Part shown: positions 39,721 to 54,436 of the stretch, piece by piece | How the letters are laid out: the number at the start of each line of letters is the position of its first letter | How positions within the stretch are numbered: the stretch's first letter is position 1 | Origin: Coriolopsis trogii | Taxonomy: Eukaryota > Basidiomycota > Agaricomycetes > Polyporales > Polyporaceae | Direction: 5' to 3' | Assembly (NCBI GenBank): GCA_020543525.1 | Contig: JAHYIO010000033.1 | Span: forward strand, 682,001 to 746,000 | Length of the DNA stretch: 64,000 bases | Program-made: the position numbers and the translations under genes | Notes under the pieces: model-generated | The model's input: the letters and a program-made list of their open reading frames with translations, nothing else | What the model was told of the DNA's origin: nothing | Database searches by the model: none

Positions 39721-40672
39721 CAGGAAAAACCTGAAATCCTAATGAGGAGCATCTTCAGTACGACGGATGCATCCGACCACGGAGGAGTCCGTCCGAATGG
39801 ATGCATCCGGCCCCCGAGCACATTCTTATTCTACCCGTCAGTCCATCAGAAGTTCAAATGTATACGGATAGTAGTAGTCAATTATATGTATCTTCCTTAT
39901 GTGTCAATCTGAAACGGTTCTCAAGCGCGGAGAAAGCGCCGAGACAGGGAGGAGGGGCATGAGGTCAAAAACGTCTGTTCTCACTTCCGTCTTCCTTGAG
40001 ACGTCATGATATGATAGATGCGGAAATGAGGAGGCGAAGTACAGAGAAAAAAGGACAAACAGAGACGAAGATGAGGACGAGGATGGCACTGCTCACCATC
40101 CTGACCCTCGTTGTCTATGCCGCCTCGTCTGTCACTGTTACTAGAAACAAGGGTAAAAGACGGAGAGAAGAGCAACAAGACAAGAGATGAGAATGGGAGA
40201 GAGACGCAAGGCACGAGAACGTACCCTCCTCTCAACCCTCGTCACCGATCTCATCCCTCCCCCCTCTTGTCCTCTTTGCTACTCTCGCCGTCCGGTCCAT
40301 TGCCCTGCTCGCCGTCCGCATTTGCCTATCGTGACTTGCCACAGCCACTCTTGCGGCCCTGCGCTGTTGCGGCCCTCGTGTTTGTCGTCGTAGTCGCATT
40401 CAGCCCTATTGTTGTGGTTTCACGGAGGCATTGTTGCAGTAGCCAAAGCAAGAGCAATGCGGCGGGAGAGGAGAGAAGGCAAGAGAGCAAAGGAAAGCAC
40501 GACTTAGGGTTTAAGACACAGAGAGACACGGAGACGAGGCGACACACTGAAAGTTCAGCCGACAAGGTTTGACAGCTGTTTGCAAAACGATAGACCGGCC
40601 CGGCTCGCGCGACAACGGCGTGCCTTGTTTGGCCGCCAACCCCAAAAGGCAGGTACGGGTAAATAACACAAG
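39721..40672. other. left flank of the mobile element
   Basis: About 0.95 kb without a supportable gene, up to the 9-bp target duplication of the helicase element. Confidence 0.5.
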
Positions 40673-40681
40673 GCCCGACAC
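40673..40681 (+). repeat. 9-bp target-site duplication, left copy
   Basis: GCCCGACAC, directly abutting the left inverted repeat. An identical 9-mer abuts the right inverted repeat at 53161-53169. It does not extend to 10 bp. Confidence 0.85.
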
Positions 40682-40763
40682 TAGTCTCGTGACCAGACGT
40701 TTGGAGCGTGAAAATTTGGGAGTACCCGCGCTCCTGAACGTCTGGTGGCTTTACCCCCGTGAC
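40682..40763 (+). repeat. left terminal inverted repeat with internal hairpin
   Basis: Matches the reverse complement of 53068-53160, best over the outer 27 bp and over the inner block CTCCTGAACGTCTGGTGGCT through ACCCCCGTGAC. Inside, 40693-40708 (CCAGACGTTTGGAGCG) and 40729-40745 (CGCTCCTGAACGTCTGG) can pair as a stem around a 20-nt loop. Confidence 0.85.
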
Positions 40764-41124
40764 TCCCCGCTCGGTGACAAATGTGACATACTGGACCCTG
40801 CCTGAGGCTTTTCGAGGACAGGCGCGCATACCGCGCGCGCGCGCACTCCTCCACATCTGCTACACTACTGTACCCGAACTGCTTAATTCTATGACCTCTC
40901 GGCAACCATATGTCTTCTCGTCATGTCTCCCATGAAGAGGAGGCCGCGCGGTCGTACGCGCTTCTACAGGCGGCCCGGGAGCGTGCGCACAAAGATAGGG
41001 GATACAACTCCAGTAGGACAAGGATGGAGATGACACGAGTATTCCGTGAGCGGATGAATAGTAAGTCTCCGCATCCATGGCAGCTGGATGTAGCGGAGGC
41101 ATTGTTGCTGGGGTTGGACTGTAC

Positions 41125-41129
41125 GGTCA
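41125..41129 (+). repeat. 5-bp target-site duplication of the LTR element, left
   Basis: GGTCA, repeated at 47681-47685. Removing one copy and the element restores the helicase frame. Confidence 0.95.
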
Positions 41130-41438
41130 TGTAACGGCCCCGCCGTTACACGAGCCTCATGGTCACTCGTAGACACGGTCCCGTGATGTACTTACCTTTT
41201 CTGTAGACCGCGACGTCGCGCACGGTCGTCCCCCGACTCCCTTTGTACCTGTTTGCCCCGCTCGTGGCCGCCACCATCGATAGCGGCCTCGTATATAGTC
41301 CTGTACGCGCTCGTTCGCGCCCCTCGCGGAATCAACACCAGTCTCGGGCCCCCTGCCCTCTCTCTCTCTGTCTCTCTGCCCGTCCGCCGTCTGTCTCTCC
41401 TCGGTCTCCCGCCCTCGGACCCCGACGCGCCCGTTACA
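41130..41438 (+). repeat. 5' LTR
   Basis: 309 bp, TG...CA ends. The first 21 bp are a short palindrome (TGTAACGG...CCGTTACA). GTATATAG at 41292-41299 is a TATA candidate. A CT-rich tract precedes the 3' end. No clear tRNA primer-binding site was recognised just downstream. Confidence 0.95.
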
Positions 41439-41603
41439 GTTTGATTCCGCCGCCCACACTCTTTTCGTCCGACTTATCCCCATCCGACCGCCGCCCATAC
41501 GTAAATCGTGTGGGAGCCATCTGTCCAACGCCCTCCGACTTCCATTTAGCGCCTACGGCGCTCGACAGCTCCCCCGCTCTATTATACTCGACCCCCTCTC
41601 GCG

Positions 41604-42836
41604 ATGGCCTTCCCAGGACACCCCGACGACCCCCCGAACGCATGGGGTGGCCCCGCGCCGTACGACGCCCCGCAGAATGCACCCCAGTTACCCCCGCAGC
41701 CTGCTGCACCTGTGTCGACGGCCCTGCTTGGCCTCGACCAGGCTCAATTCCAACAGCATCTCGCGCAGGCCATTATCAACCTCAGCACACGCTCCGAGGC
41801 CGTCGAACACTTCCAGAACCTCAACGCAGAGGTCTTCGAGTCTCTCGGCGAACGCCTCCGCGAGCAATCCGCGCACAACCAGGAGTTCTACGACAACCTG
41901 AAGGACCTACGCGATAAGTTTTCCTCTTTTTCTTTTTCTTCTTCGTCTCCCTCTGCGCCGTCGGGCTCTGGCACCTCTCGCGCACCATCAATCAAGGTGC
42001 CTGAGCCCCGCAAGTTCAACGGCTCCGCTACGCAGGTCGAGCCGTTCCTTCGGGACCTCGATACTGCTATCTATCTTCAACGTGACGCGTTCCGCTTGGA
42101 TCGCGAGCGCTCGATGTACCTCGTCTCTCATTTGGGTGATGGTGCACCGACGTCTTGGTACGTCTTCATTCAGCAGACGAACAACGCGCTCCTGGACGAC
42201 TATCCGAAGTTTGTCCAAGAGTTCAGGCGCCGTTTCCAGGACCCCGACCTTGCTACAACGTACCTAGCCAAGCTCGACAAGCTTGAGCAGACTGGGTCCG
42301 CCGCCGTCTACACTAACCTTTTTACCGAATATTTAGGTCACCTCCACTGGACCGACGAAGCCCTCAAGATCGTGCGCTTCGACCGCGGCCTCAAGCCCGA
42401 CCTCCGCCGTGAGCTCGTCCGCGTTGAGCGTCCCAACACTCTGCAAGCATGGATTCCGACCGTCATCGACATCGACAACAAGATCCATGCTCTCGAAAAT
42501 CAACTCAAGGCCTCGTCGCGCAAGTCTGGCAAGGACGCGCGTCACGACCGCACGTTCACGCCGCGTGGTCCGACCACAACCACGACTGCCACCACCACTG
42601 CTCCTGCTGCGGCTGGCTCCAACGAGCATGTGCCCATGGAGATCGATGCGACCAACAACCAGCCCCCGACGACCACGAAGCGTGGCCCCATCACGCAGGC
42701 CGAGCGTCAGCGTCGCATTGACAATGACCTCTGCCTCTACTGCGCTCAGACTGGCCACCGTCGGGACACCTGTCCTCGACGTCTCGCTCACGCCGCCGCA
42801 TGCGCTGCAAGGGCCAATCCTTCGGGAAAAGCCTAA
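41604..42836 (+). CDS. gag: retrotransposon Gag polyprotein
   Basis: 410 aa. A Pro/Ala-rich N-terminus is followed by a capsid-like helical region (FNGSATQVEPFLRDLD, then WYVFIQQTNNALLDDYPKFV and FRRRFQDPD) of the retrotransposon-gag family. A linker rich in Thr/Ala precedes a single zinc knuckle CLYCAQTGHRRDTC (CX2CX4HX4C, about residues 376-389), which would bind the RNA. Its last 37 nt overlap the pol frame, which lies -1 relative to it. A slippery heptamer sits just before the gag stop. Intact. Confidence 0.95.
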   Translation: MAFPGHPDDPPNAWGGPAPYDAPQNAPQLPPQPAAPVSTALLGLDQAQFQQHLAQAIINLSTRSEAVEHFQNLNAEVFESLGERLREQSAHNQEFYDNLKDLRDKFSSFSFSSSSPSAPSGSGTSRAPSIKVPEPRKFNGSATQVEPFLRDLDTAIYLQRDAFRLDRERSMYLVSHLGDGAPTSWYVFIQQTNNALLDDYPKFVQEFRRRFQDPDLATTYLAKLDKLEQTGSAAVYTNLFTEYLGHLHWTDEALKIVRFDRGLKPDLRRELVRVERPNTLQAWIPTVIDIDNKIHALENQLKASSRKSGKDARHDRTFTPRGPTTTTTATTTAPAAAGSNEHVPMEIDATNNQPPTTTKRGPITQAERQRRIDNDLCLYCAQTGHRRDTCPRRLAHAAACAARANPSGKA

Positions 42837-45796
42837 GCCGGAGCTCATCACCTGTCCCGGAGCTCCCGGCCGTCAACACTGGGACGCAGGCTATCCCGCC
42901 AGGGGTTCCGACGCACGTCCGGCTCGATAACGGTGTGTGGATACCGAGTCTCCCTGCGGAGGCTCCCGTTTTCCGTCTCTCTACTCACGTTCATGCATCT
43001 CCACACTCATCTCATCATTTCTTCATCCCTGTTTCTCTCAAGTTTCCGAACAGAAAACCCATCGACACGTTCGCGCTCGTTGACAGCGGCGCGACGGACT
43101 CATGCATTTCCCTCTCTTTTGCTACCATACATAATCTCCCGTGCCGTCTGAAGGACGAGCCTATACCTGTCCGCGCCGTTGATGACCGCCCGATCGCGAC
43201 GGGTTTCGTTACACATGACGTTGTGACTTCGCTTCACGTTCATGAACACTCGGAGATCATCTCTCTGGGTGTTGTCTCTGTTGCTTACCCCATCATCTTA
43301 GGTCTTGACTGGCTTAAACGCCATAATCCGTCCATCGACTGGACGCGTTCCCAGCTGGCTTTGTCTTGCTGCGGGAAAAGTATCTCCCCTGTCTCCTCTG
43401 GTGGAATTGGCAGAGGCCATATCCATACTCCGATCTCTGTCTCTGCACTCCAGTCGTGTGCACCCACCGCTGTTGGTCTCGGTTTGAGCCTTTGCGGTTG
43501 TACTCTCGTTCCATCCGTTCCTGACAACCTCGCTCGCTCTGATCAAGCGTCGGGTTGGCCTCGTGCTCGAGGCTCTCCGTTCCTCTCCGCGTCCATTCTC
43601 CCTTGGTATTCTCCACGCTTCGCGTTCCCCCTTGGCAGTGGCCGAATAGGGACGCCTCCGTCTACTGACTCTGTTTTATATCCTAGGCCTCCGACCTCTG
43701 TTGTTGCTCACCTTGGCAGCGGCCGAACCGAGCACGACATGTCTTCCGACTCCTCCGCAGCCCCACGTCCAACGCTCGATGTCAAGTTCATTAACTCTGC
43801 CCGCTTTCGCAAGATTGCGCGCAACAACGAGACCACTGCCCTCTGGTACCACCCGGAAGGATCTCGGGGCTTCACGATCGCCGCTGGGTACCTTGGTGAC
43901 TCGACCCATGCTGTCCCAGGCCCAGCGTCCGTTCCTCCCGAGCCTCCACCATCCGACGACTTCCTCCAGCACATTCCCAGCAAATATCACGACTACGCCT
44001 CGGTCTTCTCGCCTGTCGAGGTCGAGAACCTCCCGCCGCATCGCCCAGGCTTTGACGCTGCGATCGAGCTCGAGGATGGCAAGTCGCCGCCGTTCGGTCC
44101 TCTCTACCACCTGTCCCAACAAGAACGCGAGGTCCTCTTTGACTATGTCGAGACCAACCTTCGCAAGGGATTCATCCGACGCTCCTCTTCTCCTGCCGCC
44201 TCCCCCGTGCTCTTCGTCCGCAAGAAGACTGGCGAGCTCCGCCTCTGCGTCGACTACCGCGGGCTCAATGCCATCACGAAGAAGAACCGCTATCCTCTCC
44301 CACTCTTTGACGACCTTCTCGATCGTGTTCAGAGTTGTCGAGTCTTCACGGTCTTAGACCTGAAGAACGCGTTCAATCTCATCCGCATACGCGAGGGTGA
44401 CGAGTGGAAAACCGCGTTCCGCACCCACCTCGGTCTTTTTGAATATACGGTTATGCCTTTCGGCCTCACTAATGCTCCCGGCATCTTTCAGGGCTTCATC
44501 CAGGACACGCTGCGCGACTTGCTCGACGTCGTCTGCGTTGTCTACATCGATGACATACTAATCTTTTCGAAGTCCCAGGAAGAACATGACGAGCATGTCC
44601 GTCTCGTCCTCGACCGTCTACGCTCTGCGGGACTCTTCGCTAACGCGAAGAAGTGCGCCTTCGACCAGCCTGAAGTCGAGTACTTAGGGTATCTCGTCGG
44701 GTCGGATGGCATCAAGATGCACCCCGCCAAGCTCGACACCATCGCGGACTGGCCTGAACCTGCGAGCGTGAAGGATGTCCAGTCCTTCCTCGGGTTCACC
44801 AACTTCTACCGCCGGTTCATCGACAACTACGCGCGCATCGTCCTCCCGCTCAACGCTCTCACCAAGAAGGACGCACGAGCAGCTCCGTTTACCCTGACCT
44901 CTGCGGCCGCCAACGCGTTTCATGCACTGAAGCGTGCCTTCATGTCCTCTCCTCTACTTCGGCACTTCGACCCTCGTCTCCCATGCACGCTCGCCACGGA
45001 CGCATCCGACTATGCTATCGCTGGTGTCCTTCACCAACCCGACGAGCTTGGACTTCTCCACCCCGTCGCCTACTTCTCACGCAAGCTCTCTCCAGCTGAG
45101 ATCAACTACGAGGTGTATGACAAGGAACTCCTCGCTATTGTCGAGTCCTTCCGCGACATGCGCGCATGGCTCATCGGCACCAACCCTCCTGTCTCTGTTG
45201 TCTCCGACCACAAAAACCTCGAGTATTTCATGACGTCGCGTGTCCTCAACCGCCGTCAAGCTCGATGGTCGATGTTCCTCTCCGAGTTCAACTTTCGCCT
45301 CGACTATGCCCCAGGCCTGAAGAACCCCGCTGATGCGCCCTCGAGGCGTGTCGACTTCGCGCCTCGGAAGGGGGACGACGTCCTCCGAGAGAACGAAAAG
45401 ATCCTGTTGACTCCTTTGCACACAGAGCGCCTTCGTGACAAAGCTGACGCTTCGGCGAATACTACGTCTCCCTCGCCTCCCAGAATCCAGATCTCCGCCA
45501 TCACGACTCTCAGCCTCGTTGACTCCGAGTTCCATGAGCGCTATCAGCGCGCGCTGCGCTCCGACCAAGAGTGGCGCGCCGCTGTGGCTCGGAATGACAA
45601 GGACTTCACCGTCGAGGGCGATCGCATACTCTACCGCGGTCTCCTCTTCGTTCCTATGTCTTTGCGTGCTGACGTTCTTCGCTCTAGGCACGATTCTGTT
45701 CTTGCAGGTCACCCTGGTTGTCAAAAGACCTTAAACCTTGTCCTTCGGGACTACTCGTGGCCTGGTGTGACCCAGACGGTGCGCAGCTACGTTTAG
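42800..45796 (+). CDS. pol: retrotransposon Pol: protease, reverse transcriptase, RNase H, start of integrase
   Basis: Open for 998 codons and probably entered by -1 frameshifting from gag rather than at its own ATG. Aspartic protease motif VDSGATD near residue 95. RT with KNAFNLIRIREGDEWKTAF, VMPFGLTNAPGIFQ and the catalytic YIDD at about residue 581. RNase H starts at LATDASDYAIAGVL (about 731) and contains SDHKNLEYF. Next is the integrase zinc-finger half with its two histidines (SRHDSVLAGHPGCQKT). The frame ends in TAG at 45794-45796, in the middle of that zinc finger. The next codon continues the same frame with ACDTCGR, the two cysteines. A CAG-to-TAG change would explain it. Confidence 0.93.
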   Translation: MRCKGQSFGKSLSRSSSPVPELPAVNTGTQAIPPGVPTHVRLDNGVWIPSLPAEAPVFRLSTHVHASPHSSHHFFIPVSLKFPNRKPIDTFALVDSGATDSCISLSFATIHNLPCRLKDEPIPVRAVDDRPIATGFVTHDVVTSLHVHEHSEIISLGVVSVAYPIILGLDWLKRHNPSIDWTRSQLALSCCGKSISPVSSGGIGRGHIHTPISVSALQSCAPTAVGLGLSLCGCTLVPSVPDNLARSDQASGWPRARGSPFLSASILPWYSPRFAFPLGSGRIGTPPSTDSVLYPRPPTSVVAHLGSGRTEHDMSSDSSAAPRPTLDVKFINSARFRKIARNNETTALWYHPEGSRGFTIAAGYLGDSTHAVPGPASVPPEPPPSDDFLQHIPSKYHDYASVFSPVEVENLPPHRPGFDAAIELEDGKSPPFGPLYHLSQQEREVLFDYVETNLRKGFIRRSSSPAASPVLFVRKKTGELRLCVDYRGLNAITKKNRYPLPLFDDLLDRVQSCRVFTVLDLKNAFNLIRIREGDEWKTAFRTHLGLFEYTVMPFGLTNAPGIFQGFIQDTLRDLLDVVCVVYIDDILIFSKSQEEHDEHVRLVLDRLRSAGLFANAKKCAFDQPEVEYLGYLVGSDGIKMHPAKLDTIADWPEPASVKDVQSFLGFTNFYRRFIDNYARIVLPLNALTKKDARAAPFTLTSAAANAFHALKRAFMSSPLLRHFDPRLPCTLATDASDYAIAGVLHQPDELGLLHPVAYFSRKLSPAEINYEVYDKELLAIVESFRDMRAWLIGTNPPVSVVSDHKNLEYFMTSRVLNRRQARWSMFLSEFNFRLDYAPGLKNPADAPSRRVDFAPRKGDDVLRENEKILLTPLHTERLRDKADASANTTSPSPPRIQISAITTLSLVDSEFHERYQRALRSDQEWRAAVARNDKDFTVEGDRILYRGLLFVPMSLRADVLRSRHDSVLAGHPGCQKTLNLVLRDYSWPGVTQTVRSYV
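42824..42830 (+). promoter_or_regulatory. candidate -1 ribosomal frameshift site (GGGAAAA)
   Basis: GGGAAAA fits X_XXY_YYZ in the gag frame (G GGA AAA) two codons before the gag stop. Slipping back one base enters the pol frame directly. Confidence 0.7.
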
Positions 45797-47254
45797 GCTT
45801 GCGACACCTGCGGTCGCATCAAGACTCCGCGCCACAAGCCCTTCGGACTCTTGCAGCCGCTTGAGATCCCCGACCGGCCTTGGAGATCCATATCCATGGA
45901 CTTCATTGTCAAGCTGCCGTTGTCGCATGGGTATGATTCCATTCTGGTCGTCTGCGACCGTCTCACTCGCTACGCACACTTTATTCCTTGCAATGAGTCA
46001 ATGGATGCGCCGGCTCTCGCCTGGCTATTCCTCGACCGTGTCATTCGTTATCATGGCCTCCCTTCGTCCATTGTTTCGGACAGAGGCTCGACTTTTGTTT
46101 CCAAGTTTTGGACAGAACTTACCTCTCTTCTGCGCACAGACCTCAAGCACTCGACCGCCTATCATCCACAGATGGACGGCCTCACGGAGCGTACGAATCA
46201 GACCCTTGAGACGTACCTCCGGGCCTATGTCTCGTACCAACAGGACGATTGGGTCGACTATCTGCCGCTTGCCGAGTTTGCGTTCAACAACCACGAGAGC
46301 GACTCGACGAAGCAGTCTCCCTTCTTTGCCAACTACGGCTTTCACCCCGCCTTCGATCCTCAGCTCTCCGACCGCTCCTCCGTCCCTGCTGCTGCCGATA
46401 TTGCTGCGCGTTTAGCACGTCTTCACGATGAGCTGCGCCTGCAGTTGAAGGCTGCGCAGGATCGACAATCCGTCTACTACAACCGCCGCGTCTCGGACAG
46501 TCCGTCGTACAAGCCTGGCCAGCTTGTGTGGTTGCTTCGACGCCACATCAAGACGACTCGACCATCCGACAAACTTGATCATCGACGCCTCGGTCCCTTC
46601 CCCATCGAACGCGCTATATCCCCCTTAGCTTACAAACTCACTCTCCCTTCGTATCTTTCTCGCCTTCATCCCATTTTCCATGTCTCTCTTCTCGAACCCT
46701 ACCATGATCCGTCTCCACTTCATCCCGCTCCCGCTTCTGTTCCTTTTGAAATCGCTCCGGACGAATCTCCATCTCCGCCCATCGCATCCATTCTCGACTG
46801 TCGGAAGATCGGACAGCGTTACAAGTACCTCGTGCGCTGGAAGAACCTCTCGACGGACGAAAACTCTTGGGTTCCCCTCTCCGACATTCCTACCTCCGAC
46901 AACGAACTGCTCGAACGGTTCCATCGTCGACACACTCGTTCTCCGCATCCCCCACGTTCTATATTTGAGCGCCGCGCGCTCGTACCGTCTACTACTGACA
47001 CTGTTTCTACCCCTTCTGCTCCACAGGCCCCATCTGCTCCTCCCGCGTCGCCTGCCTCCGAACCCGCTCCCGCTGCCTCCGTGCCATCCTCCGCACCTGC
47101 CCCTCGTGCTCCTCCTGCCATCCTGCATGCCGCTCCACGTCCTCCGTCACCCGCACCCGTCCGCGTCAACCCCCGAGTGGAGTACACTCCACCCACGCAG
47201 ACTACGCTCCGTTCCGGACGAGTCTCGCGTCCACGGCCTCGTGCAGATGCGTAG
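45797..47254 (+). CDS. pol: retrotransposon Pol, downstream part: integrase core and chromodomain
   Basis: Same frame as the upstream pol part, separated only by one TAG. It begins with the CxxC of the HHCC zinc finger (ACDTCGRIKTPRHK). The integrase core has the D,D,E residues in ISMDFIVKLP, SIVSDRGSTFVSKFW and GLTERTNQTLE. A GPF/Y-like segment (LGPFPIERAISPLAYKL) and a chromodomain (RYKYLVRWKNLSTDENSWV, near 46815-46880) follow, then a Pro/Ala-rich tail. Chromodomains of this class can steer insertion to marked histones. With the stop in place no full integrase is made except by readthrough. Confidence 0.92.
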   Translation, partial: ACDTCGRIKTPRHKPFGLLQPLEIPDRPWRSISMDFIVKLPLSHGYDSILVVCDRLTRYAHFIPCNESMDAPALAWLFLDRVIRYHGLPSSIVSDRGSTFVSKFWTELTSLLRTDLKHSTAYHPQMDGLTERTNQTLETYLRAYVSYQQDDWVDYLPLAEFAFNNHESDSTKQSPFFANYGFHPAFDPQLSDRSSVPAAADIAARLARLHDELRLQLKAAQDRQSVYYNRRVSDSPSYKPGQLVWLLRRHIKTTRPSDKLDHRRLGPFPIERAISPLAYKLTLPSYLSRLHPIFHVSLLEPYHDPSPLHPAPASVPFEIAPDESPSPPIASILDCRKIGQRYKYLVRWKNLSTDENSWVPLSDIPTSDNELLERFHRRHTRSPHPPRSIFERRALVPSTTDTVSTPSAPQAPSAPPASPASEPAPAASVPSSAPAPRAPPAILHAAPRPPSPAPVRVNPRVEYTPPTQTTLRSGRVSRPRPRADA

Positions 47255-47358
47255 CGGCTTGGATGGCTGTTGGCCAAGAGCTATGCGTGCGAGGCTCGCA
47301 CGTCGTGAACTTGACGGCCCGTTGCGGGAATCTTGTCCGCGTCGTCGCGCTCTCCCTT

Positions 47359-47371
47359 GAGGAGGAGGTAG
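47359..47371 (+). other. polypurine tract
   Basis: GAGGAGGAGGTAG directly before the 3' LTR, the expected primer site for plus-strand synthesis. Confidence 0.8.
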
Positions 47372-47680
47372 TGTAACGGCCCCGCCGTTACACGAGCCTC
47401 ATGGTCACTCGTAGACACGGTCCCGTGATGTACTTACCTTTTCTGTAGACCGCGACGTCGCGCACGGTCGTCCCCCGACTCCCTTTGTACCTGTTTGCCC
47501 CGCTCGTGGCCGCCACCATCGATAGCGGCCTCGTATATAGTCCTGTACGCGCTCGTTCGCGCCCCTCGCGGAATCAACACCAGTCTCGGGCCCCCTGCCC
47601 TCTCTCTCTCTGTCTCTCTGCCCGTCCGCCGTCTGTCTCTCCTCGGTCTCCCGCCCTCGGACCCCGACGCGCCCGTTACA
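47372..47680 (+). repeat. 3' LTR
   Basis: 309 bp, apparently identical to 41130-41438 on direct reading. Confidence 0.95.
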
Positions 47681-47685
47681 GGTCA
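47681..47685 (+). repeat. 5-bp target-site duplication of the LTR element, right
   Basis: GGTCA, the second copy of 41125-41129. Helicase coding resumes at 47686. Confidence 0.95.
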
Positions 47686-49280
47686 TAGCGGGAACAGGGT
47701 GTGGCAAGACTATGCCGTTTGTCATGCTCACCTTTGTAGAGGATAAAAAGATATATTTTATTATCTCTCCCCTGAATGCACTGGAAAGCGACCAAGTAAG
47801 ATACCAATTCGACTGAGGGGAACACAACAACAGCGTAACTTACCAAAGTGACTACCGTGTCACCTTTGACAGGCTCGCCGCTTTGTGGATCTTGAGGTGA
47901 CAGCTGCCGCTGTTAACAGTGAAACATTCAGCAAAGGTCTTCTAGAGGTGCGTGATCAAATTATCAGACATCAGATCCTCGCATTGAAGGCATGCGCAGG
48001 ATATCGAGAAGGGAAGATATCGTATGGTCCTAACCTCACCCGAAATGACGCAGAACACGGAGTTTCGGAAGCTCATCTCGAAACCCAAGTTTGCATGTCT
48101 CATCGGGGCGTTCATTATCGATGAGGCACACTGCATCCCGCAGTGGGGCGACGATTTCCGTGAAGAGTATAATACTCTGGATCAGCTGCGTGCACTTGTG
48201 CCATGGCCTGTGCCGATTCTCGCAACCTCTGCAACGCTCACGCCTGCCGCGCTCACAGACACTCGGAAGCAGCTTGGCATTCAAGCGTCACGGTCGTTCC
48301 ACCTCAATTTGGGTAACGACCGTATCAATATCAAGCAAGAACTTCGTTATATGAAGTCTGCAGGCGACTACGCCGCACTCGACTTCATTGTGAAGAACGC
48401 GAGGTGCCGAGAAGACTTACCACGAACCATTGTATTTGTCAACTCTATTCCGAAATGCCACGCCGTAGCGTATCGACTACGTGAGGTCGTCGGAGAGTCG
48501 CTGCGAGACGAAATTCGTATCCTGCATGCCAAACGAACGGCGTCAGCTAAATCCTTTGATTGGGCGCTCTTTCGGGAGGGGAAGGCACGGATTTTGGTGG
48601 CAACAGAGGCAGCGGCGATGGTATGTACTTGTATATGGGTGGAAGATGAAGGTGATAGCTGATCTGATGTAAGTAGGGCATGGACGTACCAGACATTCAA
48701 CTGGCCGTCCAGTTTGGCGTCCCTGAGAATCTGGGGGTCTGGCTGCAGCGGGCGGGGAGAGCAGGCCGTTCGATGACACTACAAGCACGATGCGTGATGG
48801 TTGTCGAAATGTCGGTGGTTCAGCAAGTAGGAGGTAAGACTAGGAAGGTCTCGGACGGTGGTGGCGGTGCTACGGAGGAGGTGTCGGACTCTAGCGAATT
48901 TGAGGAAGAAGAGGAGCGAGACGCCAATGCCGCAACACAGCAGCTGAAGTACAGGAAGGAGATTGAAGAAAATCTTCGTGAGTGGATAGAGACAGAAGGA
49001 TGTCGGCGTCGAGTCGCAGACGCATACTTCGACAACCCACCACGACGAACAAGTACGTAATGTTTAGACGCTGTCACACCCTCGTGCCGTGTGCCTTCTT
49101 CTCCGCCAACTCATCTCTTTCACAGTGATTCCTCCTGCTCTCTGCTGCGACAACTGCGCCAAGACCGTACGAACGTCCGAACGTCCAACAACTGCACACG
49201 TGGTCCCTCGCCCTTCCATGAACCACAACACACAGGTTATCCTAGAAGAGCACGAAGACGAACGGACAGGAGACGAGAAG

Positions 49281-49327
49281 GAGGAGGAGGAGGAGGAGGA
49301 GGTGGTGGTGGCGGTGGCGGAGGAGGG
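49281..49327 (+). repeat. GAG/GTG trinucleotide tract in helicase exon
   Basis: Seven GAG units run into GTG/GCG/GAG codons, coding a Glu then Val/Ala run. In phase, so length changes would be tolerated. Confidence 0.9.
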
Positions 49328-50440
49328 CGAGGACGTCGGATTGCAGGTATGCCTACATATATTGCTCACTCGAGGAATAAACTAATATGCCTAGGACGAG
49401 AACAATCCGACAGCCTGCCCGCTCACTCCTTCGCATCAACATCGTCCGGAACCCCGTCAATCACCCAAGCGTCGTGCAGGCGATCATCTCAAGAACGTTC
49501 AACGCGCTCTCCGCCAATGGCGACGAGACATCCGACGGGATAAGTACCCATACGGGTCTCTTAAGGCCGTCAACATTCTTCCTGGTGCCAACCTTCGCAC
49601 CCTCGCCTCAAATCGACGTGGAATGAAGACCATTGGCGGCCTGCGGGCCATTCTCAAGCCCTCATGGGCCTTGCTGGACGAACACGGTCCGGATGTCATT
49701 CAATTACTCAAGCAACTCGACGCGGAACACGATGCCAAACGACAATCTGCGACTCTGGCAGCACGAGCACAGAAGAAGGCCACCACACAAGCACGCCGCG
49801 CCCAAGAGGCTGCACAACGGGCTGCCGCTAGGGCTGCTGCCCAGTTCGCACCTCAGACTTTGCCTACCTTCCGTCCAGCAATGGCTCCCTCGGGCGCAAT
49901 CAACGTCCCCGTGACACCGCACCCGCCACATTCACCGTATCACTTTGTTTACTATTCTCGTCCTTCTGTCGAGCCGTCTTCGTCAACCTCCACGCCTGCC
50001 TACTCAGGCTATGCTTCTGTACCATACCCTCCTTTCGCTCACTACACGGCCATGCCTGTTCTGGTTGCGAGATCCCCACCCTATCCCAACCCGCTTGTTT
50101 TTGTCAGTCCTGCACCAGTTCCACCTCGTCCCCTCAGAGCTCCCGACTTCTCCAGTACTGCGAATGTTTCGGAGGAGGAAGGCGTGCCTGCTCACGACAG
50201 GTCTGCGGTGTGAGCACGTGGTTGGGTTGGTGTTTACGCGTCCGCACGCATGTCCTCCCAGCGTTGTGAAGTTGAGTGCTCGTATATCTTGCGACGCTGC
50301 ACCCATTTTGGTACGATTCTACTGTTTGCAAGCTGGATTCCATCGCTGACGAATTCTTTAACAGTATCGGTGGTGTTGGAGATGGTGCGACCCGGTTGGT
50401 ATCTGTGTACGTTTCCCTTGATGTAGTGATCACAGAGTTT

Positions 50441-52984
50441 CTATATGTCTGCCTCTTTGGCGGGGTCTGTATGGCTTGTACCACGGTAGATTGTTCGGAA
50501 TTGCCTGTTGAAGTCTCCGTCAAGGGTGCGCAAGCTCGGAATAGCTGGTGCGCGGGCCTTCATCAAATTCCAAGACGCGTTTGGCCCTCGTGGACGGTAC
50601 GTCACTTTGACTTCTTTGACTGTGTGTTCTTCAACCAGGTCGATCGCCACGAAATCCTCCTCTCCCCCTGTCAAATTCACAAGCCAGCAGTTTTCCCTCA
50701 CAAACTCCCTAGATGTACCACGGTACGTCGTATCAGTATATTTGAAGCATTCATCTTCAGAGCATACTTACTTGACCTCCTGCGTCCACTCCTTATGCAG
50801 ACCTTGCAGCAATTCTAGAATCTCCACGGCGTACTTGTGATTGCCCCCGCCACAGAAGCGGAAGAACAGGTGCGGTAGAAGGTCCTCCATTAGACCGATA
50901 TCGCCTGTCTGCATAGAGCGGTGGAGGAGGATGTAATAGAGTACGTCACGATTTCACATCACCGCTTGCCGCAGAACATCATCCTCCTGACCATCCATCT
51001 TATTTTCTAGATCCTCGACGGCGTTGTTTGATGCAAATTCTTCAACAAGTTGCTCCGCAAGGGCACGTAGCTCTTCTGGGTCCCGGCGGCAAAGCTCCTC
51101 GATTTTCTCCACCTCTCCAACCTTCAGCCAACAATCACGGATGTGCGCCTCTGCCACATGAAGAATGCCCTCGTGTAGGTGGTGATGGAATGGGCCCTTG
51201 ATCTGAACTGACTGAAGGCCGGTGCGGTTCAACAGTGCAAAGGCCTGTCGGAGGCCTTTGGTACCTGTTGACCCGAAGTACTGACGATGGAGGGAGTTTG
51301 CGAATGCCATGAGCAGGTGGAACCATCCGAAGACAACGACAAGCCAGTCCATCCGGTCAAGGCCGTTGTGATCCTCGCAGCGGAAGTTTGACAGGCCGCG
51401 CAAGCGGTCAACTGTGAGCTGATCTCCGACCCAGACTAGCACACGATCCATCCCTGTACGTTTCTGTTCCTCTTCGCTGTTGAGCTTCAGCTGCCGCATC
51501 CACTCTTCGATAAGCTGATCCGTTCCCTCGTAGCTTGCCTCGTCTATATGCACCGTGCCGAGTACGTATTGTTTGGTCACATGTTCTGGACCACAGGGGA
51601 GGCGGCGGACTGGTGGGGTAGGTGTGAGTGCAGGGTGGGTGCGATGGCCGTACGTGTTCTTGTCAAATGCAGGAGTTTCAAGGAGCATATGCAGTACAAT
51701 GTCAACAATGTGGCGGTGAACTCGAGGTGCCGACGATGCCTCGAGTTTAATGATCTCCTCCACAGTCATTGGCTCAAGACGTCCTATCCGCCTCTGCTCC
51801 TGGAGAGCCGCACTAGACATAGGAGGGGGCTGTGGTGCAAACGGTTTGACGAAGACTGAGCCGGTTGTTCCGGAGTCGAAATGCGACTGGTGGTTCAACC
51901 GTTGCGAGTACACCCGGAATGCAAAATTGACGTTGTCATACGCGAGCCACCAAGCCATGACGAGAATGATCTTGCACAGCATCTCCATTGCATGAGCTGA
52001 CATCTTCGCATAAGCTCGCACGCTCCAGCTGTGACTCATGGTGATACCGAGACCATGAAGGAGGTCGAGAGCCTTGGCTGAGGCGCCCTTAGCCTTCAAG
52101 AAGATTGTCAAGGGCTTTGTCCATGCAGTCAGGCTATGAGAGCGCAGATATTGTATTTGGCTGAGAACCATCACCGTAGCCTATTGTATTGGATAAATAA
52201 GACAACCATCCACCAAACTACTTGTATGAATACATACATAAGTTGGATTCTTGCGCAACTTGCCTTCCCCGCTGACCTGATGCCCTACAACTCGAACACG
52301 CCGATGCATAGCTCCATGGAGGAGAGCAAATGTGTTTGGTGCACCAGTGTCGAGTTGAAGCTTTGCAGCCACCTCTGAGAATTGGAAGCTTGTGAGACCC
52401 TCCTCTGAGAGACAGTCCTTGCGTGATCGGAAGATGTGTGCTGTGGCTTCCAACTCGCGATCGACAATTTCGGACACGCACTCGACTGCAAACTTCTCGA
52501 GAGCCTTGCGCGCGCCTTGCGGTCGGACATGGTGATGCTTTGAAGTGCTTGCACGGGGAACCTTGTACCATCGCTCAAGAATACCAGGGAGTTCCTCGCT
52601 GACCATCAGAGCCGTGCGCGCATACTGGACTTTGGCATTTGAGATACAGCCATCATCACCCCAGCTCAATGCGTCCAGAAAGATTGGTAGATTCATATCC
52701 AATAACTCCATGAAGTCCAGAATTTGGACTACACGATCTACTTTGTTCGCAGAACCGAGGCGTTCGCGGAGTGCTCGAGTCTGCTGCAATTGAATTGGGG
52801 GGACGGGTGGAGGAGGATCTACTGCTACTAGATCCCATTCGGAAATGTCGGACAGGCGATCGCTCTCGTACCCGGGTTCTGAGGGATTGGGCTCATATTC
52901 TCCATCATCGTCGTGGTCGAAGAGAGAGCCCCAGCCGGTGTGCAGTTCGTCCGGAGTAGGATCGACAGCCTGAGAAGCGTCCAT
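50441..52984 (-). pseudogene. DUF6589-family protein with in-frame stop
   Basis: Exons 52984-52238, 52180-50772, 50708-50441 read as 808 codons with a single TGA at 50956-50954 (codon 658). Reading resumes in the same frame with NRDVLYYILLHRSMQTGDIG for about 150 more codons, so the TGA is probably a nonsense mutation of a TGG. The N-terminal 250 residues are acidic, then helical. The core has DRVLVWVGDQLTVDRLRGL and DRMDWLVVVFGWFHLLMAFA, which I recognise as the basidiomycete DUF6589 domain. The C-terminus has FFRFCGGGNHKYAVEILELL and KEVKVTYRPRGPNASW. Function unknown. The alternation of a hydrophobic strand with acidic and His residues (GDQ, MDW, FH) could suit a nuclease fold, but that is a guess. 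It converges on the helicase gene inside the same element. Confidence 0.8.
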
Positions 52985-53067
52985 AGGCGCGGAAAAGAAG
53001 CAGCTCGGAGTGGTCGGAGATCAAGCCAGAATGTCACAAACGTCACTCTATGGTCACCGCGGGGGGT

Positions 53068-53160
53068 GTCACGGGGGTAAAGCCACCAGACGTTCAGGAG
53101 CTCGGAACCGCCCGATTTTTCGGTTCCGATTGAAGCTCCGAACGTCTGGTCACAAGACTA
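53068..53160 (-). repeat. right terminal inverted repeat with nested hairpins
   Basis: Inverted copy of 40682-40763. Arms 53086-53102 (CCAGACGTTCAGGAGCT) and 53134-53149 (AGCTCCGAACGTCTGG) can pair. Within the loop, TCGGAACCG (53102-53110) and CGGTTCCGA (53121-53129) form a second, perfect 9-bp stem that the left end lacks. Confidence 0.85.
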
Positions 53161-53169
53161 GCCCGACAC
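53161..53169 (+). repeat. 9-bp target-site duplication, right copy
   Basis: GCCCGACAC, identical to 40673-40681. Confidence 0.85.
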
Positions 53170-53180
53170 CTCAAGTTGCA

Positions 53181-53449
53181 CGACGGGCAACGGCGTATGC
53201 CACCCCCCAGAACAGGCCAGGAAGATTGCCGGGATTGGTCTCCTGTTCCGGGCCAGAATACTGTCGTGACATCACCGGAGCGCCGAATAAAAAGGATTCG
53301 AACTCCGAAAAGCCCATTAGTCCCAGCTGCTTATCGGCCTTACCCAGATTCCGGCACGATCTCCGAAGATATTCTGGACCAGAACAGGAGACCAATATCG
53401 GCAATTTCCCCGGCCTGTTCAGGAGGGCGGCTTTGGCCATTGCCCGTCG
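53181..53449. repeat. palindromic (foldback) repeat
   Basis: Arms of about 80 bp, 53181-53260 and 53370-53449, are inverted copies with scattered mismatches. Shared blocks are CGACGGGCAA, GAACAGGCC, ATTGGTCTCCTGTTC and CCAGAATA. The spacer is about 110 bp. It begins 12 bp beyond the right end of the helicase element. It could be a small foldback/MITE-type element or a structured target. No target duplication was identified. Confidence 0.75.
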
Positions 53450-54436
53450 TGTTGGGTCGCGTTGAGGCTCCCACTTCCCTGGAAATGGTACCAGGCAAAT
53501 GAACCCTGTGCTGTTTACGGTGGCGGGAATAACTCCTCGGGCGGTTAATAACCATGTTATTAACCTGGGGCAGAAGTATCGGAATTCGTCCGCAAGCTGC
53601 AGGCTTCATTCGGGTTCTCGCTCGACCACAAGTCATATGTCTCGGGACTACTCGTCTCAGTGATTGCGACGCTCTCGCGTACACACATCAATTCTCCACC
53701 TGAATGGGTTCGACGCGAGGCATCTCCTCGTTGTCTTGAGGCGCACTCCGCATGGGGTCCACGCAACGCAGACAATCCCGCCGGATAGACCTTCTTCTCG
53801 CACGACATCTTTGGAATCTCCCTTCACGGGCGGCACGTCCGGAACACTGATCAAGCGGCCTATGGCTCCCCGTCGTTGAATGGGTGACGATCGTGTCCTT
53901 CTTTTGATCTGGTCCACTTGCTTGTCGAGTACTCGAGCGAGGAAAGGGAGAAGTGTAACTACTATGACAGCCAGGCGCAGGCGTGGCGCCAGGACAGCCG
54001 GATGCCAAAGACATCAATAGTAGCTCGGCGGAGAGTAGCCATTCCTAAGTCAAATGTGACGATTATCGTGAGGCTGAAGTGGACGAAGACAGTTCTGACC
54101 AACCGGACTCAGAGGGAGGTGTATAAGCTTAGGCTATCGCGGACATCTCGACCGTAGAACGGGCACTGATACTAATGAGGCGGCAGACAATTAGCTGGGG
54201 ATGAGATCGTTGTTGCCACTTCGGTAGAACTATTTTGTCGAAGACGTATTCCTACATATATCTGCACACGTCCACCCCTTGGTATTCGGATATCTGATGG
54301 AATAAGGGCCTGCCCCGTCATGAAGAGCATGTGTGTGAAGAAATAGCTCTCGCTACAATTACCGATACTACTATACATCGTGGCACACACTCGTGTGACA
54401 ATTATATGTTCGTATGCTCGCCTCGCTCATCGACGC
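53450..54436. other. right flank of the mobile elements
   Basis: About 1 kb with no supportable gene, ending at the 3' side of the ankyrin gene. Confidence 0.5.

Follow-up and report, generated by a model that had tools for sequence, protein, structure and literature searches.

A DNA transposon carrying RecQ-type helicase and DUF6589 genes in Coriolopsis trogii, very probably of the AcademH type

Results

Positions 40682-53160 of a 64,000-nucleotide stretch of the Coriolopsis trogii genome (the window) are occupied by a DNA transposon whose inverted ends read TAGTCT...AGACTA. Units of this build, in which inverted ends enclose one gene for a RecQ-type helicase and one for DUF6589, have inserted at several sites in the genome, leaving 9-bp duplications, and short forms bounded by the same ends have also moved. 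By its anatomy, as AcademH is described, the window element is very probably an AcademH-type DNA transposon.

Table 1 Features of the transposon in the window.
Feature	Position	Strand	Basis
Left 9-bp target-site duplication, GCCCGACAC	40673..40681	.	exact repeat check
Left terminal inverted repeat (TAGTCTCGTGACCAG...)	40682..40763	+	inverted-repeat comparison
Subterminal hairpin, left end	40692..40746	+	single-strand DNA fold, z -5.26
Helicase gene, 5' part, cut by retrotransposon just upstream of Walker A motif	40910..41129	+	start codon and motif by inspection
Ty3/Gypsy-type LTR retrotransposon, nested, not part of the transposon	41130..47680	+	repeats and profile matches
RecQ-type helicase gene, remainder	47686..50213	+	profile and solved-structure matches
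Helicase, DEAD frame	47988-48662	+	profile match
Helicase, Helicase_C frame	48677-49060	+	profile match
Helicase, presumed C-terminal part	49395-50213	+	weakly supported
DUF6589 gene, presumed transposase	50471..52984	-	Pfam E 1.2e-70
DUF6589 exon 2, after intron	from 52180	-	edges by inspection; Pfam match extends to 50471
DUF6589 exon 1	about 52984 to 52238	-	edges by inspection
Right terminal inverted repeat	53068..53160	-	inverted-repeat comparison
Subterminal hairpin, right end	53085..53150	+	single-strand DNA fold, z -5.95
Right 9-bp target-site duplication, GCCCGACAC	53161..53169	.	exact repeat check

The earlier note on this DNA had described inverted terminal repeats, an exact 9-bp direct repeat on both sides and two convergent genes within 5,923 bp once the nested retrotransposon is removed, and each of these descriptions held. 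The inverted arms align in two blocks, one of 69 nt (86%) and one of 32 nt (88%) (combined span 40681-40778 vs 53053-53161), the direct repeat is exact, the genes encode a RecQ-type helicase and a DUF6589 protein, and 5,923 bp is the length of the element minus the retrotransposon. These ends are beyond chance, because they also bound five short copies elsewhere in the 38.8-Mb genome, four of which have exact 9-bp duplications. The short copy C1:3815472 has its duplication directly after an end without the last base, and no target duplication was found for C39:638080-639265.

Element ends occur at at least 14 distinct places, 12 of which form six pairs, and the termini are TAG or CAG. Exact 9-bp duplications flank all eight two-gene elements with both ends (window, L036, L047, L039, L040, L041, L042 and L048) and both further derivatives (L053 and the CAGGCTCC element in L030). 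A search for 8-11 bp repeats, reaching up to ~120 bases around the arms, located the duplications of L036, L039-L042 and L045/L053; an end-motif scan located those of the outer element in L030 and of L047 and L048, and all were then rechecked. Pieces of 1.3-4.7 kb from copies at separate sites share 97.8-98.8% identity (L041, L043, L046).

Empty sites, which the earlier note had suggested searching for along with further copies, were found for two insertions, neither with a gap at the junction. The joined flanks of the short copy C1:28252-28864 match a paralogous site in C5 (L058) at 701/713 positions, with 4 gap columns, all far from the junction. Those of the window element continue into L056 and L057, where 142/167 columns match and the remaining 25 comprise 6 of end overhang, 1 gap ~30 bases off the junction and 18 mismatches; this site is more diverged, and its 9 bp differ from the duplication at 2 positions.

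All ten helicase loci from the protein search, the window included, lie within 4 kb of a DUF6589 locus, a co-occurrence that the earlier note had suggested testing within 6 kb, and in eight of these pairs both ends are present and the 9-bp duplications exact; in L038 and L046 one end is not recognisable. There are 12 DUF6589 loci (grouped from 21 matches), two of them without a helicase. The proposal that both genes form one mobile unit is thus borne out by the paired loci, common ends, 9-bp duplications and empty sites. The reading of two adjacent host genes in a repeat-rich stretch, with ends and duplication produced by chance, is refuted by ends that recur with exact 9-bp duplications, by the empty sites and by the pairing at 10 loci; nothing was found in its favour, and we give it practically no credence.

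The same note had held that such a unit would explain the expansion of these gene families. RecQ models gave at least 38 matches (37/50 candidates scored) grouped into 26 loci. Ten of these, whose match covers the second half of the model only, were set aside as C-terminal parts of helicases in general. Ten of the 16 left are DUF6589-linked (10/26 without setting loci aside), all counts being lower bounds, and for these the explanation stands. It fails for the six RecQ-type loci apart from DUF6589, one of them ~11 kb from a contig end, so the transposon is rejected as the source of all RecQ copies. Subtelomeric RecQ helicases of fungi, located at chromosome ends, are reported in parts of PMC4522978 and PMC10817607; these are likewise RecQ-type and in several copies, whereas the DUF6589-linked helicases are scattered and have transposon ends.

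The window copy itself appears dead, since a retrotransposon splits its helicase gene and its DUF6589 frame has an in-frame stop at 50954-50956, absent from the earlier note. The retrotransposon inserted recently, its LTRs (41130-41438 and 47372-47680, 309 bp each) being identical with 0 differences, and it is flanked by a 5-bp duplication, GGTCA, at 41125-41129 and 47681-47685.

The hairpin-forming ends that had been proposed were recovered for the window element, where 0/200 shuffles were as stable in single-strand DNA folding. For the left arm of L032, of which 58 bases were given, z was only -1.89. Hairpins as a general feature were rejected, as three CAGGCTCC ends showed no excess (z 0.46, -1.71 and 1.96), and hairpin ends are limited to one sub-lineage.

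The window helicase is RecQ-type, with BLM and WRN as closest solved relatives (TIGR00614, E 2.1e-23). Selection was assessed in five pairwise comparisons, three of DUF6589 and two of the helicase. DUF6589 was under constraint (pN 0.18, pS 0.80 for L039/L040; pN 0.26, pS 0.83 for L036/L037; 8 synonymous and 10 non-synonymous changes for L041/L043), and the helicase piece showed no constraint between the recent copies, neither for L041/L043 (dN 0.024 vs dS 0.020) nor for L046/L043 (dN 0.028 vs dS 0.027). In an alignment of nine DUF6589 paralogues, D82, D253 and D401 were invariant (9/9), and one E was conserved in all eight paralogues reaching that position; the window protein, read beyond its stop, seems by eye to be without the E common to the other eight. 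The Pfam DUF6589 match covers exon residues 136-408, with D82 outside it. These invariant acidic residues, together with the constraint on the gene, make it plausible that the DUF6589 protein is the transposase. A single-sequence AlphaFold model of the 408-aa exon had a pLDDT of 35, too low to be usable as a structure.

Relatives of DUF6589 were sought in IMG/VR contigs (12 pattern matches, and 60 in a further search) and in bacterial and archaeal species genomes (99 pattern matches), with none confirmed. A comparison of the nine DUF6589 proteins with transposase models gave no convincing match, the one Tc3-type HTH (E 0.28) being at chance level, and the nine-row DUF6589 profile, searched against solved structures, matched no transposase, the lone match being a histone methyltransferase (E 0.87) taken as chance. 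DUF6589 was not mentioned by name in the literature searched, where a text match to PF20231 was an unrelated optics paper. Both the missing match to known transposase models and this silence would suit a separate, undescribed superfamily whose transposase would not be nearer to Academ than to other transposases and which gained its RecQ helicase independently. Against this, the helicase, the 9-10 bp duplications and the presence in basidiomycetes are AcademH traits as far as the sources report them, and we consider such a superfamily improbable. Similarly doubtful is the fuller version in which DUF6589 is a transposase lineage separate from Academ, units of DUF6589 plus RecQ form an unrecognised superfamily, and the helicase takes a direct part in transposition, working in one branch on hairpin-capable ends.

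AcademH elements have terminal inverted repeats, as DDD/E transposons generally do, and DDD/E transposases have an RNase H fold. AcademH DNA transposons were reportedly treated by Kojima (2020, Mob DNA 11:15). They are described, in the portions of the sources available, as known from animals and fungi, as having target duplications of 9 or 10 bp and an encoded helicase (PMC10045372), and as occurring at low copy number in Basidiomycota with a DEAD/Helicase_C helicase (PMC10799480); PMC9587614, in part, lists Academ among DDD/E transposons. The element described here likewise encodes a DEAD/Helicase_C helicase, has exact 9-bp duplications (8/8 two-gene elements) and terminal inverted repeats, and is present at low copy number in a basidiomycete. 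Compared by description, helicase, target duplications and inverted ends revealed no difference from AcademH. The earlier note had called the transposon a candidate new one, which is not borne out, because both its helicase gene and the 9-bp length of its duplications agree with the descriptions of AcademH. If the window element's membership holds, AcademX too belongs to its superfamily, but an excerpt of PMC10045372 gives AcademX 3 or 4 bp duplications and apparently a nuclease replacing the helicase.

Two known groups were weighed against the AcademH assignment. A Mutator-like element (MULE) that acquired a helicase would fit duplications of 8-11 bp and long inverted ends, and such elements can gain extra frames according to part of PMC6446971; yet a MULE model was listed for 0/9 DUF6589 proteins at E up to 10 (HMMER filters drop most weak matches), and we judge this origin very unlikely. 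KolobokH, reported from fungi only, combines a RecQ helicase and a transposase within one element (PMC9587614, in part), and a RecQ helicase is also present here. Kolobok elements are described with 4-bp TTAA duplications and RR...YY termini, whereas the elements here have 9-bp duplications and TAG or CAG termini, which leaves KolobokH extremely improbable.

Discussion

In the mechanism we propose, the DUF6589 protein, as putative transposase, would bind the inverted ends, cut there through an RNase H-type acidic centre and attach them to target strands that have been cut with a 9-bp stagger; filling of the gaps by host repair would then leave the 9-bp duplication. The helicase may open or remodel DNA at the ends or the joint, or alternatively may help repair or copying through the joint. 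Its role in such transposition can be tested, because one genome contains both near-identical full-length copies and short copies whose ends are defined.

Ends, duplications and empty sites tie DUF6589, a Pfam family without assigned function, to a mobile unit that also carries a RecQ helicase, and the acidic residues of DUF6589 are concrete catalytic candidates. Counts of RecQ helicase or DUF6589 genes in such fungi would be in part counts of transposons.

A helicase–DUF6589 unit in the window and across the genome

The structure reported in an earlier note is true and well supported: the inverted ends and the exact 9-bp direct repeat were both recovered in the window, which occupies C30:682001-746000 of a 38.8-Mb assembly (39 contigs) and whose genes and repeats suggest a basidiomycete fungus, and the element measured 5,923 bp, as the note had given, after subtraction of the nested retrotransposon and one GGTCA copy. 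The retrotransposon probably inserted recently, since its LTRs are identical, and despite this its long frame carries an in-frame stop at 45794-45796.

Features of the window element and duplications at loci of the same genome that pair helicase with DUF6589
Feature	Position	Strand	Details
Window element	40682-53160		12,479 bp; inverted ends; exact 9-bp direct repeat GCCCGACAC
Nested Ty3/Gypsy-type LTR retrotransposon	41130-47680		two identical 309-bp LTRs; 5-bp duplication GGTCA
Helicase gene	frame 47988-48662	+	matches RecQ helicases
DUF6589 gene		-	408-aa exon; PF20231 match, E 1.2e-70
Host repeat of the element, with inverted arms	40571-40681 and 53455-53496		relatives L056, L057
Other paired loci, 9-bp duplications			L036 TACCTGGGA; L047 CCGCGCACG; L039 ACACCGGTC; L040 AGGTCACGC; L041 GTCTACTCC; L042 GACTTGAAC; L048 GATTATTCA

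The best solved relatives of the helicase frame were BLM (E 3.9e-12) and WRN, and its match to TIGR00614 had an E of 2.1e-23. By inspection, the retrotransposon interrupts this gene shortly before the Walker A motif, while a stop at 50954-50956 closes the DUF6589 frame with the Pfam match continuing past it, so both window genes are broken.

Searching with the window helicase frame returned at least 10 loci, window included (a lower bound, as the best candidates were scored), and a DUF6589 locus lay within 4 kb at all 10, inside the 6 kb over which co-occurrence had been proposed. DUF6589 itself gave 21 matches, which we grouped into 12 loci; helicase was absent at a degenerate one on contig C7 and at L053, a 1,677-bp form with the duplication AGGATAAAG. 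Both ends and exact 9-bp duplications were present in eight of the ten pairs, and a single end was found at each of the remaining two, L038 and L046, although L038 carries inverted arms (349 nt, 99%). Judged from coordinates, the genes were convergent in eight pairs and divergent in two (L036 and L047). The idea that the two genes form one mobile unit is thus sound. L041, L043 and L046 were 97.8-98.8% identical to one another over pieces of 1.3-4.7 kb, and L041 does not share its duplication with L048, which is the same locus as L043; one family or more has therefore transposed recently. L041 sits at the extreme end of an apparent TAG-ended element (L041:2430-2477; branches are named by terminal bases), whose final bases overlap the L041 duplication.

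Short copies and empty sites

The window-type transposon is mobile. A genome search with either window end found at least 14 separate sites, of which two lie in the window, ten pair up as five short elements (117-1,186 bp) and two are unpaired ends. Exact 9-bp duplications flanked four of the five short elements (GCTTCGAAG, ACAAATTAC, CTGCACCAC and CTGCCTGTC, the CTGCACCAC copy having lost its last base), and inspection of the flanks of the fifth (C39:638080-639265) found none. The 613-bp copy at C1:28252-28864 is nested within a CAGGCTCC-ended element bearing its own 9-bp duplication. At L030:1459-3137, a CAG-ended non-autonomous copy contains a TAG-ended short copy, each with a separate 9-bp duplication.

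Empty sites, which the earlier note had suggested seeking, were found for two insertions. The joined flanks of the C1 copy, with one duplication copy kept, aligned to a C5 sequence (L058) with 701 of 713 positions identical and the junction itself ungapped. The window element was inserted into a repeat with uninterrupted relatives at L056 and L057; once both the element and the 273-bp repeat beside it were removed, the flanks aligned to these relatives without gaps at the junctions and with 142 of 167 columns identical, the others being end overhang (6), a gap elsewhere (1) and mismatches (18, two of them within the 9 bp). The 273-bp repeat (window 53179-53451) is palindromic and lies between TTG triplets, with 82-nt arms that are 83% complementary; at least 19 other places match its arm at 88% or more.

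Hairpin ends

Hairpin formation held for the window ends (folding z -5.26 and -5.95 against shuffled sequence) and for TAG-ended relatives, but not for three CAGGCTCC ends, which showed no folding excess over shuffled sequence (z 0.46, -1.71 and 1.96). The 613-bp copy reached z -5.08 at its left end, and the 117-bp copy, almost entirely one long palindrome, z -12.57; excess was lesser at the L036 left end (-3.51), and the 58-base L032 left arm folded more weakly (-1.89). Within this sample hairpins therefore characterize the TAG-ended branch, and movement in general cannot depend on them; they may simply hold inverted binding sites.

DUF6589 as a probable transposase

By exclusion and from its conserved residues, DUF6589 is probably the transposase. 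Among nine aligned paralogues, two of them nearly identical (L041 and L043), D82, D253, R259, H288 and D401 were invariant, two further columns contained only acidic residues (D or E), and a later E was constant in all eight paralogues reaching that position; D82 falls outside the Pfam match. Read past its stop, the window copy appears by eye to be without this E, which leaves D-D-D and D-D-E as candidate triads. Substitution patterns indicate that the gene is under constraint (L039/L040, pN 0.18, pS 0.80; L041/L043, dN 0.009, dS 0.022). Recent copies of the helicase piece showed no constraint (L041/L043, dN 0.024, dS 0.020; L046/L043, 0.028 and 0.027), which may be noise or decay given so few changes. 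DUF6589 would cleave the element at its ends and link those ends to a target whose strands are cut with a 9-bp stagger, and the helicase could remodel ends, help at the joint or serve in copying.

Contribution to the RecQ family

The TIGR00614 model had at least 38 matches in the genome, which we grouped into 26 loci, setting aside ten with matches confined to the model's second half. Ten of the remaining 16 RecQ-type loci were DUF6589-linked and six were not; the transposon therefore accounts for part of the helicase family here, and the proposal that it explains the family's expansion fails for the rest. One unlinked locus, C5:11203-12204, lies ~11 kb from a contig end and is a candidate telomere-linked helicase; its match closely resembles that of C33:2869153-2870154, also unlinked. 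RecQ genes at chromosome ends of fungi have long been reported, according to passages of two papers (PMC4522978, PMC10817607).

Relation to known transposons

The earlier note had called the transposon new; very probably it is of a known kind, AcademH. AcademH is reportedly attributed to Kojima in 2020. As described in passages of PMC10045372 and PMC10799480, these are helicase-encoding DNA transposons of animals and fungi with 9- or 10-bp duplications, and the likeness to those descriptions lies in the helicase gene and 9-bp duplications found here. Putative Academ elements are mentioned in a report on the mushroom Marasmius oreades (PMC8290104). That the element is instead a MULE is unlikely, as no MULE model was listed for any DUF6589 protein. 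KolobokH was ruled out because Kolobok is described with other duplications and termini. Our literature search found no paper naming DUF6589, though other papers or databases may do so. The useful point is the link of DUF6589 to a helicase-bearing transposon unit.
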